DNA from: Gemmatimonadaceae bacterium
GTDB lineage: Bacteria > Gemmatimonadota > Gemmatimonadetes > Gemmatimonadales > Gemmatimonadaceae
Assembly: GCA_036273715.1 (NCBI GenBank)
Contig: DASUHB010000062.1
Span: 1-64,000 of the forward strand
DNA: 64,000 nt
Direction of reading: 5' to 3'
Position numbers and translations under genes: made by a program. Positions 6,159-35,777 of the stretch are shown here, piece after piece. Position 1 is the stretch's first letter; each line of letters opens with the position of its first letter. The notes below the pieces were generated by a model. That model saw nothing but the letters and a program-made list of their open reading frames with translations. It was not told the origin of the DNA and did no database searches.

Positions 6159-6899
6159 CTACATGGTGAGGACGAGCGGCGCACCTGTCCGGATCACGAT
6201 CGTGTGCTCGTGGTGCACCGCGAGCGCGCCGCTCAGCGTGCGCAGCGTCCAGCCGTCGTCATCCTGCACCGCTCGCGTTGGGCGCGGGGTGACCATCGGC
6301 TCGAGCGCAATCACCAGCCCGGGCGTGAGCACGCCGCGGGTCGCCGGATCGTTCCAGTTAGGCACCGATGGGCTTTCGTGGATGCGGCGTCCCACGCCGT
6401 GGCCGCAGAGCTCTCGCACCACCGCCAAGCCGTGGCGCCGCACCTCGCGTTCGACCGCGCCGCCCAGCTCGCCGAGCGAGGTTCCCGCGCGCGCCGAGCG
6501 CAGCGCCGCCGAGAACGCCTGCCTCGCGCATCGCTGCAGTTCCCGCGCGCGCTGTTCCGCCGGCGGGACGAGCACGGTGATGGCCGCGTCCGCGATGTAA
6601 CCGTCGAGCTCGAGCGTGACGTCCAGTTTCACTGCGTCGCCGCCGCGGAGAACGCGCGGGCCGGGGATGCCGTGCACGATTTCGTCATTCACGCTGATGC
6701 AGGTGAATCCGGGAAAATCATAGGCGAGTTGCGGCGCCGAGCGCGCGCCGTGCGCGCGCGCGAACCGCGCGGCAACTTCGTCGAGCGCGGCTGTGGTGAT
6801 GCCGGGCCGCACCGCTCCGCGCATCGCGGTGAGCGTTTGTGCGACGAGCTGTCCGACGCGTTGGAGTCCGGCGAGATCCGAAGCGGATTGGATGGTCAT
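6159..6899 (-). CDS. map: Methionine aminopeptidase, type I
   Basis: Removes the N-terminal methionine from new proteins. All five metal ligands can be placed: the two Asp of KLDVTLELDGYIADAAIT, the His of ELCGHGVGRRIHE, the Glu of IALEPM and the Glu of HHEHTIVI. The FTCISVNDEIVHGIPG segment is typical of the family. Length 246 aa is normal for the short bacterial form without an N-terminal extension. The first metal-site segment reads LELDGYIAD where DVGAxxDGYxxD is usual. It follows the 49-aa gene and lspA on the same strand, so the three are probably co-transcribed. Confidence 0.96.
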   Translation of the reverse strand: MTIQSASDLAGLQRVGQLVAQTLTAMRGAVRPGITTAALDEVAARFARAHGARSAPQLAYDFPGFTCISVNDEIVHGIPGPRVLRGGDAVKLDVTLELDGYIADAAITVLVPPAEQRARELQRCARQAFSAALRSARAGTSLGELGGAVEREVRRHGLAVVRELCGHGVGRRIHESPSVPNWNDPATRGVLTPGLVIALEPMVTPRPTRAVQDDDGWTLRTLSGALAVHHEHTIVIRTGAPLVLTM

Positions 6900-29281: not shown

Positions 29282-31228
29282 TTACTGCACGCGGATCGGC
29301 ACTCTGGCCAGCAAGTTCCGCTGGCCGCCGTTCCGCCGGATCTCCAGTCGGAGGTTCCCCGGGTGCTCCGGCACGTACTCGAAGTCGTACGTCTCGCCAA
29401 TCCCGATGTACTGGCTCGCCAGTCGCAGCTGCCGCTCGGCCTCCGGAAAATCGAAGCCGTCCTTGGCTAACGGTCGCCACCGAACGGTCATCGTGTCGGT
29501 GACCCCCCGCAGCGAGCTGTCGGGCCGCGCCGTGAGCGCGGCGATCGGCGCAGTATTCACCGTTGACAGATTGAGGAAGCGAAGGCGCGCCGGCCGCCCA
29601 ACGTGAAGAAGAATGGTGTCGGGGTTTGCTGTGCCGTTGATTTCGAACGGGTGCTCGACCGGACCGTTGAACACGGTCAACGTTCCGTTGATGCCCTTGA
29701 GAAAGAAGACATAGTCGTCCGCCGGCGGCGCCGTCCCGGAGTCACGAACGATCAGCGCTCCCTCGAGTCCGCCGATCTCGGCGCGCAACTCGTCCATGTG
29801 AACGTGATACATGAACGTGCCGGACCGCGGCGGCGTGAAGCGCGCGTCGAATGAATCGCTCGGCGCGATCTCCGGCGATCGGTGACCGCTCTCTCCGCTG
29901 AACCCCATCACCCCGTCCATGTAGCTGTCCTGGAGCTCGATGCCGTGCCAGTGCACGCTGGTGGGCTCGTTCAATCGATTGACGATCATGATCGAGACCG
30001 GCGCGCCGCGCGCGAGATCGAGTTCGGGACTCATGTCCGACTTCGATTCGACACGATGCCCATTCTCCTCGAGCACGAAGTGCATCGACGGTATCGCGCT
30101 GGCCGTGCCGTTCGCGCCGCCCAACGGAGTTTCTTCGGCGATGAGGCGCAGATGCCGAACGGGCGAGGGCGGCGCGCTCGCGGCCTGAGCGCCGGGATGT
30201 TGGCCAACGGTTATGCCTAACACGAGGCCGACCATGCCCAGCATGTGCGGATCGTTTGGCTCCGCCGACGTCGAATCGGGCTCGAGGTGGACCGCGAGAT
30301 GGCAATGAAAGATCCAGCTGCCTGGCCGGTCCGGCGACCAGGACATGGCCATCGCCGTGTATGGCGGCAGGAGCTGGGTCACGACCATCTCGCCCGGCGT
30401 GGGCCGGCTCAAGTTGCTCTGGCCCGAGAAGTCGTCGATCCGGAAGTAGAAGCCGTGCAGATGCATCGGGTGCGGAAGAAACGAGGCATTGATGACCCGC
30501 CAGTGCAGCGAGTCGCCGACCGTTGCGTTGATGCGCTCCGTGTTAGGCCAGGAACGACCGTTGATCGTGTAGATCAACCGCCCGACCGGCGCGCCCGGTT
30601 GCGATGGACCCTGCACGGTGTCACGGAACGCGTTGAGGGTCGAGTCTTGCGTCGCCATGATGACGAAGACGCGGTCATCTGCCGCGCGCGAGCCCGATGT
30701 ATCGACCACGATCGCTCCGGTCAGGAGCCCGGTGACGCCGGTTCCCTGGCTCGCTTTGTCAGGCATCAGCGCGCGATACATATAGTTTCCGGGCACGGTC
30801 GCGTGCAGCGTGAGCATGCCGGTCGCTTTTGGCGCGATGACCACCGAGTCTCCCCGTTTGGGCGCTTTCGGGTCCCCGCGGATCGCGGACGGCACGAGAA
30901 ACGTGAGCGGCGCCGCGAACGAATTGCGCACTGAGATCCGAATCTCCGTTCCCGCTGCCACGCGAATGAGGGGGCCAGGGACGAGCGGTGCCTTCCCATT
31001 TTCGGAGAACGCCGCGATGGCCACCGGTGGTCGATGCGGTCCGTCGCGCCACCACCTGGCCTGGCCCGCTTCGAGCGAGACCGTGAGGACGCCGTCGCGC
31101 AGAAGTCCGGCGCGCTCGACGTTCGGGTTGGGCCGCACGACGGGCGGCACAGCGTAATGAGCCACGTGGGCAGACAGGACTAGCGTGCCCAGGAGCAGTA
31201 TCGCGGAACGAGGCGACATAGGAGGCAT
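29282..31228 (-). CDS. Multicopper oxidase with permuted copper motifs (paralog A)
   Basis: A 648-aa exported protein of four cupredoxin-like domains. Copper motifs occur in the order HPMHLHG (253-259), HCHLAVH (308-314), HWHG (426-429), MYHVH (to 477), that is 3-4-1-2 instead of 1-2-3-4. The first domain has lost its ligands: TFLVPSAI stands where HWHG belongs and NYMYRALM where YHSH belongs. The axial position of the type 1 site is Ser (HLEPDS) rather than Met, which in laccases goes with high potential. The layout dead-live-live-dead looks like two fused two-domain oxidases. The ATG at 31228 is used; 31219 is also possible. Substrate unknown. Confidence 0.88.
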   Translation of the reverse strand: MPPMSPRSAILLLGTLVLSAHVAHYAVPPVVRPNPNVERAGLLRDGVLTVSLEAGQARWWRDGPHRPPVAIAAFSENGKAPLVPGPLIRVAAGTEIRISVRNSFAAPLTFLVPSAIRGDPKAPKRGDSVVIAPKATGMLTLHATVPGNYMYRALMPDKASQGTGVTGLLTGAIVVDTSGSRAADDRVFVIMATQDSTLNAFRDTVQGPSQPGAPVGRLIYTINGRSWPNTERINATVGDSLHWRVINASFLPHPMHLHGFYFRIDDFSGQSNLSRPTPGEMVVTQLLPPYTAMAMSWSPDRPGSWIFHCHLAVHLEPDSTSAEPNDPHMLGMVGLVLGITVGQHPGAQAASAPPSPVRHLRLIAEETPLGGANGTASAIPSMHFVLEENGHRVESKSDMSPELDLARGAPVSIMIVNRLNEPTSVHWHGIELQDSYMDGVMGFSGESGHRSPEIAPSDSFDARFTPPRSGTFMYHVHMDELRAEIGGLEGALIVRDSGTAPPADDYVFFLKGINGTLTVFNGPVEHPFEINGTANPDTILLHVGRPARLRFLNLSTVNTAPIAALTARPDSSLRGVTDTMTVRWRPLAKDGFDFPEAERQLRLASQYIGIGETYDFEYVPEHPGNLRLEIRRNGGQRNLLARVPIRVQ

Positions 31229-31398
31229 GGTGACGGTTAGGAACGAGATGCTACCGCCGCGCATCACGCCACCGTCACTCCACCGTCACCTGCCCGTGTG
31301 CATCCACTGAGTGCCAGTATGCGGCCTGCCATGGCCTCCCGCGTACATATATTTGGCTGATCAGTTCGCCACCTGCATTCCGGCTTCCCGAGGTCTCC

Positions 31399-34131
31399 AT
31401 GAAACGATCCGCGCGCATCACAGCCGCCGTTCTTGCGCCGATCGGCGTCGTACTGGTACTCCTCGCGCTGCTGCCGTTCGTGTTTCGCGACCGGATTGCA
31501 CTGCGCGTCCAGCAAGCGGTCAACGACAATGTGAACGCGCACGTGGCATGGCGCAGCATTGGGCTCTCCTTCTTCCGGCACTTCCCCAATTTGAGCCTCA
31601 CGCTCGACGATCTTGCCATCGTCGGCGCGGGACGCTTCGAGGGCGACACGCTCGCCGCCGTGAGCCACCTGCGCGTGGTGCTCGAGCTGACCAGCGTGGC
31701 GGGTAATCTGCTGCACGGCGCGCCGCTCGAAGTCGGCGCGCTCGAGCTCGATCGGCCGCGCGTCCACCTGCTGGCGCTCGAGGACGGCACGGCCAACTGG
31801 AACATCACCAAACCGGCACCGGCGGCGGCGCCGACCGCGCCTAACGCCAAGCCGTTCGCGGTGCGCCTGCGCCGCGTCGCGATCACCGGCGGCACGATCG
31901 TGTTCGACGACCGGCACGCCAACGTCCTCGCCTCGCTCGCCGGCTACGACCAGTCGTTGAGCGGGGACGTGAGCCAGCGGCGTGTGAGCATTCGCACGAC
32001 GGCCGGCGCCGACACCGCCACCCTCGTCTTCGCCGGAATCCCCTATCTCGACCACGTGAAGCTCGGCCTGACGGCCAACGTGGACGCCGACCTCGCGGCG
32101 AAGGCGTACACGCTCGCCAACACGGAGCTGCGCCTCAACGACCTCGCACTCGCCATCTCCGGGTCGGTGAAATCGGCGGACAGCATGATGGCGCTCGACC
32201 TGGCGTTCACGGCGCCCAAGGCCGACTTCAAGAGCATGCTGTCGCTTGTGCCCGGCGTGTACGCGCACGATTTCGACAAGGTGCAGGCCACGGGCGCCGT
32301 CGCGCTGGACGGCTGGGTCAAGGGCCGGTACGGCCTAACGGCGTTTCCGGCGTTCGCGCTCACCGCCAAGGTGACGGACGCGGCGTTCAAGTACGCGGAT
32401 CTGCCGCTCCCCGCGCGCTCGATCGGCGTCGATCTCTCGCTCGACAACCCGGGCGGCAGCGCCGACAGCACCGTGGTCACGCTCGACCGGTTTCACGTCG
32501 TGCTCGGCGCCAATCCCATCGACGCACGCATGGTGATGCGCACACCGATCTCCGACCCCGACATCGATGCTCGCCTAACGGGCAAGGTCGATCTCGCCGA
32601 CGTGCGGCGCACCGTGAAGCTCGAGGGCGTCGACCAGCTCGCGGGCACCGTCGCCGCCAACGCGGCGGTGCACACGCGGATGTCCTTCCTCGCGAAGCAG
32701 CAGTACGACAAGGTGATGGCGAACGGCACCGTGGACGTGGCCGGTCTCACCATGAAAGGCGCGGCGCTGCCCCGCCCGCTCGCCGTCCAGCAGGCGTCGC
32801 TCGTGCTGGCGCCGCAGCGCGCGCAGCTCAAATCGTTCACGGGCACGGTGGGATCGAGCGACCTCCAGGCATCGGGCACGCTCGACAACCTCATCGCCTT
32901 TGCGCTGCACGGCGACACGCTCCGCGGATCGGCGACCGTCACGAGCAAGCGGTTCAATCTCGACGAGTGGCGCTCCGGCGGCGACCTCGCGATCATTCCG
33001 GTGCCGCCCAAAATCGACGTCGCGCTCGACGCGACCGTCGGGCAACTGCTGTACGACAAGCTGACGATGAGCAACGTGCACGCCCGTCTCCGCATCGCCG
33101 ACCAGCGGGCGACGCTCGAGCAGTTCCAGGCCGGGGCGTTAGGCGGCCAGATCGCCGTCAGCGGCGTCTATGAAACCACGCAGCCCGCCAAGCCGACGTT
33201 CGACGCCACGGTGACCATGACCAGGGTCGACCTTCCATCCGCGTTCCAGGCCTTCACCACCGTGCAGATGCTGGCGCCCGTGGCCAAATATGCGAGCGGC
33301 ACCGCCACCACCACCGTGCACGTGAGCGGAGCGTTAGGCAAGGACATGATGCCGCTCTTGCCGAATCTGAGCGGCGCCGGCACGCTCGAAACGTCCGAGC
33401 TCGCGCTGCGCGGGTTCCCGGCGTTGAGCAAGCTCGCCGCCATCACCAAGCTCGACGTCCTCGACAATCCCACGCTGCAGCCGCTCCGCGCCCGGTTCCG
33501 GATCGACAACGGCCGCCTGACGGTGCAGCCGTTCGACGTCAAGGTGGCCGGCATCGCCGCCACGATCGCCGGCTCGAATGGACTCGACCAGTCGCTCCAG
33601 TACACCATGAACATGCACGTCCCGCGATCGATGCTCGGGACCGCGGCGAACGATGCGCTCTCGAGCCTGGCGTCGCAGGCCGGCAGGGCCGGGGTGAACC
33701 TCGGCGCCGCACCCGAGATTCCCCTGGCCATTCAGTTAGGCGGCACGGTCGCCAATCCGACCGTCAAGGCCGGCGCCGGGACCGCCGCGTCGTCGGCTGT
33801 CGCCGCCGCCCAACAGGCCGTCACGCAGCAGGTGTCGGCCGCCGCGTCGAAGCTCGTCGAGCAAGCCGAGCAGCAAGCCGCGACCATCAAGCAGAACGCA
33901 CAGGCCCTGGCCGACACGGTGAAGCAGATCGGCCACGCCCAAGCCGACTCGTTGACCGCCAAGGCCGGCTCCAATCCGCTGCTGCAGGTCGCGGCCAAAG
34001 CCGCGGCCGACAAATTGCGCAAACAGTCGGACGACAAGGCGGCCGCGATCGTGCGCACGGCCAATCAGCGCGCCGACAGCCTGGTCGCCTCGGCGCGCGC
34101 GCAGGCGGCCAAGGCGGGCGCCAAGCCGTGA
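31399..34131 (+). CDS. AsmA-family protein
   Basis: A 910-aa envelope protein with one N-terminal membrane helix (AAVLAPIGVVLVLLALLPFV) and a long periplasmic part rich in beta strands. AsmA-type segments are visible: VNAHVAWRSIGLSFFRHFPN, LSLTLDDLAIVG, then repeated 'LELDRPRVHLL / LTLDRFHV'-type strands. AsmA/YhdP/TamB-like proteins are thought to form hydrophobic grooves that carry phospholipid to the outer membrane, which fits a diderm host. The last 110 residues are an Ala/Gln/Lys-rich coiled coil (QQAATIKQNAQALADTVKQI), unusual for the family. Seven GTTAGGC motifs fall in this gene. Confidence 0.87.
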   Translation: MKRSARITAAVLAPIGVVLVLLALLPFVFRDRIALRVQQAVNDNVNAHVAWRSIGLSFFRHFPNLSLTLDDLAIVGAGRFEGDTLAAVSHLRVVLELTSVAGNLLHGAPLEVGALELDRPRVHLLALEDGTANWNITKPAPAAAPTAPNAKPFAVRLRRVAITGGTIVFDDRHANVLASLAGYDQSLSGDVSQRRVSIRTTAGADTATLVFAGIPYLDHVKLGLTANVDADLAAKAYTLANTELRLNDLALAISGSVKSADSMMALDLAFTAPKADFKSMLSLVPGVYAHDFDKVQATGAVALDGWVKGRYGLTAFPAFALTAKVTDAAFKYADLPLPARSIGVDLSLDNPGGSADSTVVTLDRFHVVLGANPIDARMVMRTPISDPDIDARLTGKVDLADVRRTVKLEGVDQLAGTVAANAAVHTRMSFLAKQQYDKVMANGTVDVAGLTMKGAALPRPLAVQQASLVLAPQRAQLKSFTGTVGSSDLQASGTLDNLIAFALHGDTLRGSATVTSKRFNLDEWRSGGDLAIIPVPPKIDVALDATVGQLLYDKLTMSNVHARLRIADQRATLEQFQAGALGGQIAVSGVYETTQPAKPTFDATVTMTRVDLPSAFQAFTTVQMLAPVAKYASGTATTTVHVSGALGKDMMPLLPNLSGAGTLETSELALRGFPALSKLAAITKLDVLDNPTLQPLRARFRIDNGRLTVQPFDVKVAGIAATIAGSNGLDQSLQYTMNMHVPRSMLGTAANDALSSLASQAGRAGVNLGAAPEIPLAIQLGGTVANPTVKAGAGTAASSAVAAAQQAVTQQVSAAASKLVEQAEQQAATIKQNAQALADTVKQIGHAQADSLTAKAGSNPLLQVAAKAAADKLRKQSDDKAAAIVRTANQRADSLVASARAQAAKAGAKP

Positions 34132-34184: not shown

Positions 34185-35777
34185 ATGGAGCAATTCCTCG
34201 CCAGCCTGGCGCTGATCGCCATCGTCCTCATCGCGGCCGCTCTCCTTTCGAGCGCGCTCGAGCGCGCCGGCGTCCCGATCGCCGCCGTGTTTCTCGCCCT
34301 CGGTGCGCTGCTCGGTCCGTTCGGCATGGGGCTGCTCGATGTCGGATTCCATTCTGCCGCGCTCCACGCGCTGGCGACCCTTGGCCTGGCCCTGGTGCTG
34401 TTCAGCGACGCGGTCACCGTACGCATCGCAGAGCTCAGCGCGCAGCGCCGGCTGGTCTGGCGCGTGCTCGGCCCGGGCACGCTCATTCCGGCCATCCTCA
34501 TCGCCGTGGCCGCCTGGCTTCTGTTAGGCGTGACGCCGCCCGGTGCGGCGATCCTCGGCGCCGCGCTCGCGTCGACCGACCCGGTGTTGCTGCGCGGCGT
34601 ACTGCGCTCGCCGGCGCTCCCGGCGCCGGCTCGATTGGCGCTGCGGATCGAGACCGGGATGAACGACGTCGTGCTGCTGCCCATCGTCGTACTCGCCATG
34701 CTCCTGCTGCGCGCGCCGTCGAGCGGCGTCGCGCCGCACGACGTCGTGCGCAGCGTGCTCGGTCTGTTCCTGCTCGGCCCATTGTTAGGCGCGGCGGTCG
34801 GCTGGACCGGGATCGCGGCGCTGTCCCGCGTTCGCGAGCGGATTGGCGTGAGGCGCGACTACGAGTCGCTGTATGCGCTGGGGCTCGCGTTCGGCGCCTA
34901 TGCCGCGGCCGAGGCCGTCGGCGGAAGCGGGTTCGTCGCGGCGTTCGTGGCCGGCCTCATGGTGGCGATGCAGGACGTCGAACTGTGCGACTGCTTTCTC
35001 GAATACGGCGAAGCCACCGCCGAGATGCTGCTGCTGCTCACGTTCGTCGCGTTAGGCACGTCGCTCATCTGGTCGGGATTCGCCGGCGTCGATTGGCGGC
35101 TCGTCGTGTTCGCCTGCATCGCGCTCGGCACGAGAACGGTGGTCCTGTATCCCATCCTCGTCGGCGCCGGGATGGAGACGCGCGACCGGCGGCTGGTCGC
35201 GCTCTTCGGCGCGCGCGGGCTCAGCTCGCTGCTGCTCGTCCTCCTGCCCGTCTTCCTCGGACTGCCCGGCTCCGACCGTCTGTTCGCCATCACGAGCTTT
35301 GTCGTCGTGCTGTCGGTGGTGCTCCACGGGGGCGGCATAGGCCTGTTCGTTCGCCGGCACCGCGCCGCCACCGCGCCGGCCCCTGTACTAACGGAAAGGC
35401 CAGCCCTTCCGATCGCCGCGCCAGCCACCGATGGGGTTCCCGAACGGATCGGCATCGACGAGATGCGCGCGATGCAGGCGCGCGGCGAACCCGTCGTGAT
35501 CGTCGACGCGCGCGCGCGCCGGAACTACGACGCGGATACCATCACTGCCGCCGGCGCTGTCCGACTCGACCCGGACGACCCGGTTCGCGATGCGACCGCG
35601 CTCCGGCTGTCGCAGCGAGCAACGCTCGTGGTCTACTGCGCCTGACTCGACGAAGCCACGAGCGCCCGGGTGGCGCTCCAGCTGAGACGAGCGGGTTGGC
35701 CCAACGCTCGAGCACTTCGCGGCGGATGGACGGCGTGGAAGAATGCCGGATTGGCCACCCAAGCGAAGGCGCACTGA
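34185..35777 (+). CDS. Cation/proton antiporter with C-terminal rhodanese domain; candidate selenoprotein (in-frame UGA at 35643)
   Basis: Residues 1-400 are a CPA-type antiporter with about 12 helices; ALASTDPVL and ETGMNDVVLLP carry the conserved Asp residues. Residues 415-530 are a rhodanese domain. The open frame stops after VVYCA at UGA (codon 487), but the same frame continues 43 codons, LDEATSARVALQLRRAGW then LRGGWTAW, to TGA at 35775. This is the expected end of a rhodanese of the YCxC-P/L-x-E-x-x-S-A type, with UGA exactly at the second Cys (Cys485-Ala-Sec487). A SECIS-like hairpin follows. Known: Sec replaces redox Cys and rhodanese-related selenoproteins are reported. Inferred: this UGA is decoded. 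Alternatives: simple truncation, sequencing error or decay. No sel genes are in the window. Confidence 0.7.
35660..35678 (+). promoter_or_regulatory. Candidate bacterial SECIS hairpin
   Basis: GAGCGCC (35660-35666) and GGCGCTC (35672-35678) form a perfect 7-bp stem with loop CGGGT. It begins 14 nt after the UGA at 35643-35645, and the G at loop position 2 is 22 nt from it. Bacterial SECIS elements lie within the coding region just 3' of UGA, with a short apical loop carrying G among its first two bases, about 16-37 nt from the UGA. All three criteria are met. Confidence 0.6.

Follow-up and report, generated by a model that had tools for sequence, protein, structure and literature searches.

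A gene for a CPA1-type cation/proton antiporter fused to a rhodanese-like domain is found in a genomic stretch of 64,000 nucleotides (to be referred to as the window) from a Gemmatimonadaceae bacterium, and selenocysteine (Sec) is almost certainly inserted at its in-frame UGA codon 487. This assignment is based on sequence and comparative evidence, with no protein, 75Se or mass-spectrometric data. A selenoprotein with an antiporter–rhodanese core is the probable reading overall, the confidence in it being lowered for the less certain proposal that the selenium centre gates the antiporter.

Organization of the fused gene

The features of the gene and its neighbors are listed in Table 1. The reading frame runs through ...VVYCA-UGA-LDEATSARVALQLRRAG...LRGGWTAW..., with 43 codons between UGA 487 and the terminal TGA. 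The Pfam match for the rhodanese extends across codon 487, and as a result the UGA falls inside the second domain. The fusion homologues are collinear with the window protein over residues 1–530. The preliminary description, made from the DNA letters alone, had reported the position of the UGA, the 43 downstream codons and a 7-bp hairpin with loop CGGGT, and all of these are exact.

Table 1. Positions in the window of the fused gene, its functional elements and its neighbors
Feature	Position	Strand	Basis or remark
Whole gene, CPA1-type antiporter–rhodanese fusion, 530 aa	34185..35777	+	Sec487 (almost certain); terminal stop TGA at 35775-35777
Na+/H+ exchanger membrane domain, residues 17-390	34233..35354	+	Pfam PF00999 (Na_H_Exchanger), E 1e-34
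Motifs in exchanger domain: TDP 131-133, ND 160-161, Arg344			
Cys268-Asp-Cys270, candidate thiol partner of the Cys-x-Sec centre	34986..34994	+	Invariant; predicted cytoplasmic end of antiporter domain
Rhodanese-like domain, residues 425-521	35457..35747	+	Pfam PF00581, E 2e-10
Cys485, rhodanese catalytic cysteine position	35637..35639	+	Invariant; alignment to solved rhodaneses
UGA codon 487, almost certainly read as Sec	35643..35645	+	Conservation in homologues; Sec machinery in genome
SECIS hairpin GAGCGCC[CGGGT]GGCGCTC in mRNA, within coding sequence	35660..35678	+	Fixed position and covariation
Multicopper-oxidase-like protein	29282-31267	-	3 kb upstream of fused gene
AsmA-family protein	31399-34131	+	Neighbor of fused gene

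The multicopper-oxidase-like and AsmA-family genes were not found as conserved neighbors of the fused gene elsewhere. A comparison of the gene neighborhood across 75 loci gave no widely conserved neighbor, and hence no hint of a pathway.

Conservation of UGA codon 487

UGA 487 is kept in more than 80 relatives from Gemmatimonadota, Acidobacteriota, Chloroflexota, Thermomicrobiota, Myxococcota and Pseudomonadota. Scanning a single genome for each species gathered 80 relatives, and further fused UGA copies were obtained from Gemmatimonadota and Chloroflexota. Codon 487 is TGA in 73 distinct loci (including that of the window) and a Cys codon, TGC or TGT, in 8, and no residue other than Sec or Cys was seen here among the aligned loci. 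One locus (L092) initially seemed different; on inspection it reads YCTU, and it is an additional UGA locus beyond the 73. The UGA is located at the same codon in homologues down to roughly 35% identity, and all seven rhodanese-fused relatives from the same genus, family or order have exactly one TGA within the match. Conserved residues continue past the UGA to the C terminus in the 73 aligned UGA loci and in L092. Among 47 aligned fusion proteins, Cys485 is invariant and residue 487 is invariantly Cys or Sec.

One further sequence (L071), near its match end at 6353, diverges from the family shortly after the rhodanese domain begins, continuing as apparently oxidase-like sequence. It could be a chimeric contig or a real truncation.

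The preliminary description had claimed Sec insertion, and this is supported on comparative sequence evidence. It had proposed looking for Cys at codon 487 in homologues, where it is indeed observed in some, and had stated that the reading would fail if the homologues all ended at the same UGA without the rhodanese end; instead, they continue through this end. Every refutation test named beforehand that could be run favored the Sec reading.

The SECIS hairpin

In the window, the 5′ arm of the 7-bp hairpin starts after 14 nt, and the CGGGT loop starts 22 nt after the UGA with G at its second position. The published model for bacterial SECIS elements has a loop of 3–9 nt, a stem of 4–16 bp, G in the first two loop positions, a distance of 16–37 nt between UGA and loop, and a minimum free energy (MFE) of −7.5 kcal/mol or lower (PMC13188914). 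The window element meets all these criteria; the hairpin is part of the MFE fold, and the 30-nt element has an MFE of −13.2 kcal/mol. The earlier claim that this spacing and loop G agree with bacterial SECIS rules thus held.

The distance of the hairpin from the UGA is constant across the Sec forms. An intact 5-bp stem with loop G[G/U] is present in 72 of the 73 homologous UGA genes, as compared to 2.1 expected when synonymous codons are sampled according to the codon usage of the individual genes, so the hairpin is not a chance feature. In the genes with an intact hairpin, arginine in the loop is encoded by CGT or CGG without exception (about 28 of 73 expected). Over the 72 rows of the tree, pairing is kept in 359 of 360 stem cells. 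At least 2, 4 and 4 changes between Watson-Crick states are needed on the tree for pairs 2, 3 and 4, respectively, corresponding to roughly 10 independent compensatory double changes, and the pairing is destroyed when the partners are slid by 1–3 columns. In some cases both sides of the stem change the protein together, for example from TSA-R-V-A to TST-R-V-V, indicating that the RNA constrains the amino acids. The hairpin is degraded in the Cys forms and has no Watson-Crick stem.

The fold of the single sequence is not unusually stable relative to dinucleotide shuffles (z −0.5), and the case for the SECIS element therefore rests on the comparison. An Rfam search found no family at the gathering score.

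Selenocysteine machinery and exchange of Sec and Cys

The preliminary description had named selA, selB, selC (tRNA-Sec) and selD as genes to look for in the host. All are present above curated cut-offs in its 4.34-Mb draft genome (98.7% complete), with scores of 541 bits for selA (cut-off 268), 332 for selB (242), 380 for selD (125) and 76.7 for tRNA-Sec (47). The host selD (L128 / C19:10882-11992) carries an in-frame TGA of its own, and the tRNA-Sec gene is found on its contig at a distance of about 100 bp.

Among the genomes searched, a strong tRNA-Sec (over 60 bits) is found in 34 of 39 with the Sec form, versus 2 of 8 with the Cys form (Fisher p 0.001). Five Sec-form genomes have no clear tRNA-Sec, several of them being small and probably incomplete metagenome bins. 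Within Gemmatimonadota, selA is present in 18 of 20 fusion genomes and in 36 of 50 others, a weak signal because selA is common in this phylum.

In a midpoint-rooted tree built from 79 proteins, three changes account for the Cys forms, all nested among Sec forms: in Nitrospirota (Manganitrophaceae), in a group of mostly Anaerolineae, and in one Chloroflexales-like copy. From this nesting, it is inferred that Sec is probably ancestral within the sampled family and that Cys is secondary, usually where the machinery is missing. The genomes of two Cys-form genes (L090 and L098) retain a strong tRNA-Sec, and the switch to Cys can thus precede loss of the machinery. A Sec-form copy in a record titled Scytonema tolypothrichoides (L087) is placed among Chloroflexales, and this genome has no clear tRNA-Sec. 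Contamination of a cyanobacterial assembly by a foreign contig is the probable cause, or else a recent transfer.

Alternatively, the UGA could be a plain stop or a nonsense mutation, with the rhodanese end a decaying or unused remnant, and a standard reading of the frame does end at this UGA (35645). However, this is all but excluded by the protein conservation and SECIS covariation 3′ of the UGA across six phyla, by Cys at the same codon elsewhere, and by the presence of the Sec machinery. It remains possible that truncated and full-length forms coexist as a regulated mixture. A nonsense mutation, a pseudogene and a sequencing error are ruled out by the conservation and covariation. A reassigned code (UGA as Trp) is also ruled out, since TGA is also the terminal stop of this gene and the Sec machinery is present.

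The antiporter domain

The exchanger domain is matched by models of NhaP2-type K+/H+ antiporters. The AlphaFold2 model (mean pLDDT 90) has Z scores of 37–39 with PaNhaP, MjNhaP1 and SOS1, and of 30–39 overall when NHE-type exchangers are included. Residues S130, D132, N160 and D161 are invariant in the 47 aligned fusion proteins, and R344 is nearly so. The retention of these ND and TDP residues and of Arg344 indicates that the antiporter half is likely a functioning CPA1 exchanger, as inferred from the sequence and the predicted fold; there are no transport data.

The Cys268-Asp-Cys270 motif is also invariant in these 47 proteins. It is present in all 104 fused-type hits, as compared to none of 13 ordinary CPA1 homologues. 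The copies having this motif without a readable rhodanese part (L174 and L175) sit at contig ends. Based on the alternation of the helices and the positively charged loops, the C terminus is predicted to be cytoplasmic and the motif to lie where helices 9/10 end on the cytoplasmic side, both being likely. At two loci, L022 (217-1356, minus strand) and L023 (106-1251, minus strand), a second, ordinary CPA1 antiporter gene without this motif adjoins the fused gene in divergent orientation.

The rhodanese domain

The rhodanese domain contains a CxU motif, C485-A-U487. Its loop is C-A-U-L-D-E-A-T-S-A-R and the canonical CxxGxR sulfurtransferase loop is absent, so that the usual thiosulfate sulfurtransferase chemistry cannot be taken for granted. 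The NCBIfam model NF041203 (rhodanese_LYCAU) scores 81.1 bits on this domain, under its 115-bit cut-off, and none of 298 genomes in the phylum has a match over this cut-off. A search of plasmids gave matches to distant rhodanese domains only.

Short standalone YCxU rhodaneses, with an in-frame UGA followed by a hairpin of the same kind, are observed in Gemmatimonadota (L136, L137, L149, L152, L153 and L155). None of them reaches the NF041203 cut-off, and current annotation may therefore miss them.

It is possible that the selenorhodanese acts on its own as a membrane-tethered enzyme (a thiol/selenol oxidoreductase or a sulfur carrier), for which the antiporter serves only as an anchor or for local pH coupling. 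The standalone YCxU rhodaneses in the same phylum favor this reading, as they indicate that the domain can work without an antiporter. On the other hand, the antiporter retains its transport residues, the extra Cys-Asp-Cys motif is restricted to the fused family, and the canonical CxxGxR loop is missing.

A possible redox gate

The reading preferred here is a redox-gated antiporter. SelB, bound to the downstream SECIS hairpin, would deliver Sec-tRNA to UGA 487. The product would be a 530-residue CPA1-type Na+ or K+/H+ antiporter with a cytoplasmic rhodanese-like tail carrying a Cys485-x-Sec487 redox centre. Cys485 and Sec487 may be joined in a selenenylsulfide or act as carriers of sulfane sulfur, and their oxidation or persulfidation would be passed on to Cys268-Asp-Cys270. 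Exchange at this motif would then switch cation/proton exchange on or off, as a gate sensitive to redox state or sulfane sulfur.

Gating through thiol exchange is suggested by the Cys-Asp-Cys motif, which is invariant, exclusive to the fused family and predicted to be cytoplasmic, and is further favored by the invariance of Cys485 and of Cys or Sec at residue 487. The gating step is inferred, with no data on transport, on gating or on the distance between this motif and the Cys-x-Sec centre, and the case for it falls just short of even. A bolder reading, slightly less likely still, is a new and widespread class of selenium-regulated ion transporters, in which a Cys-x-Sec rhodanese tail would exchange thiol/selenol bonds with the antiporter Cys-x-Cys and couple the redox or reactive-sulfur state of the cell directly to cytoplasmic pH and cation balance.

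A further alternative is that the Cys-x-Sec and Cys-Asp-Cys motifs together form a soft-metal site (Cu, Zn or Hg), the transporter being regulated by metal or exporting it. Most predicted selenoprotein transporters are metal-linked, such as the UxC Cu/Zn efflux transporter NF033936 (PMC13188914), and the multicopper-oxidase-like gene is nearby. However, there are no conserved metal-resistance neighbors across the 75 loci, and the fold, with its ND motif, is typical of CPA1 Na+/H+ exchangers, making this alternative unlikely.

Novelty and comparison with known systems

No antiporter is listed among the 119 prokaryotic selenoprotein families inventoried in 2026, and none of the words antiporter, exchanger, sodium or potassium appears in the text of that inventory. 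It does include the CxU rhodanese (NF041203), as its form 3, and, as form 5, a rhodanese/DsbD fusion-like protein (PMC13188914). No antiporter selenoprotein was found in the full-text literature searched, and papers beyond that scope could still mention one. The novelty suggested in the preliminary description therefore held in part, as the CxU rhodanese was already catalogued and the antiporter fusion was not. New here are the rhodanese–antiporter fusion, its wide spread and, within the membrane domain, an invariant CxC as partner motif, together with a plausible but untested regulatory principle.

With this family, the selenoproteome of soil and marine phyla would gain a cation/proton antiporter, its genes being cut short at the UGA in a standard reading, and the family appears to be predominantly Sec-based. 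It offers a concrete and testable hypothesis, namely that an ion transporter is redox-gated in a selenium-dependent way. The family also provides a natural data set for SECIS evolution, with one fixed, covarying SECIS element and three apparent switches from Sec to Cys.

The form 3 rhodanese, a predicted selenoprotein, shares with the window domain the rhodanese fold and Y-C-x-U, with Sec two residues past the Cys at the catalytic position. However, its model covers 126 positions only, whereas the below-cut-off window domain is fused to a 390-residue antiporter. TsoB (NF045694, form 5) likewise combines a selenium rhodanese with a membrane protein, the latter being suggested by its name. In comparison, its partner is DsbD-like rather than a cation/proton antiporter, and its motif is UxxxxU, with two Sec residues (PMC13188914).

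NhaP (PaNhaP and MjNhaP1), NhaP2 and SOS1 have the fold and transport motifs of the window antiporter, and SOS1 also has a large C-terminal cytoplasmic domain. None of these is known to contain a rhodanese or Sec. The other CPA1 homologues examined differ from the fused family in having no Cys-Asp-Cys motif.

The glutathione-gated K+ efflux antiporter KefC is related in fold to the window protein (Z score 29.6). KefC is a cation/proton antiporter gated by thiol chemistry. It belongs to CPA2, is not known to contain Sec, and is gated through a nucleotide-binding KTN domain rather than a rhodanese. By analogy, the gate proposed here would resemble that of KefC in its logic, while being built from different domains.
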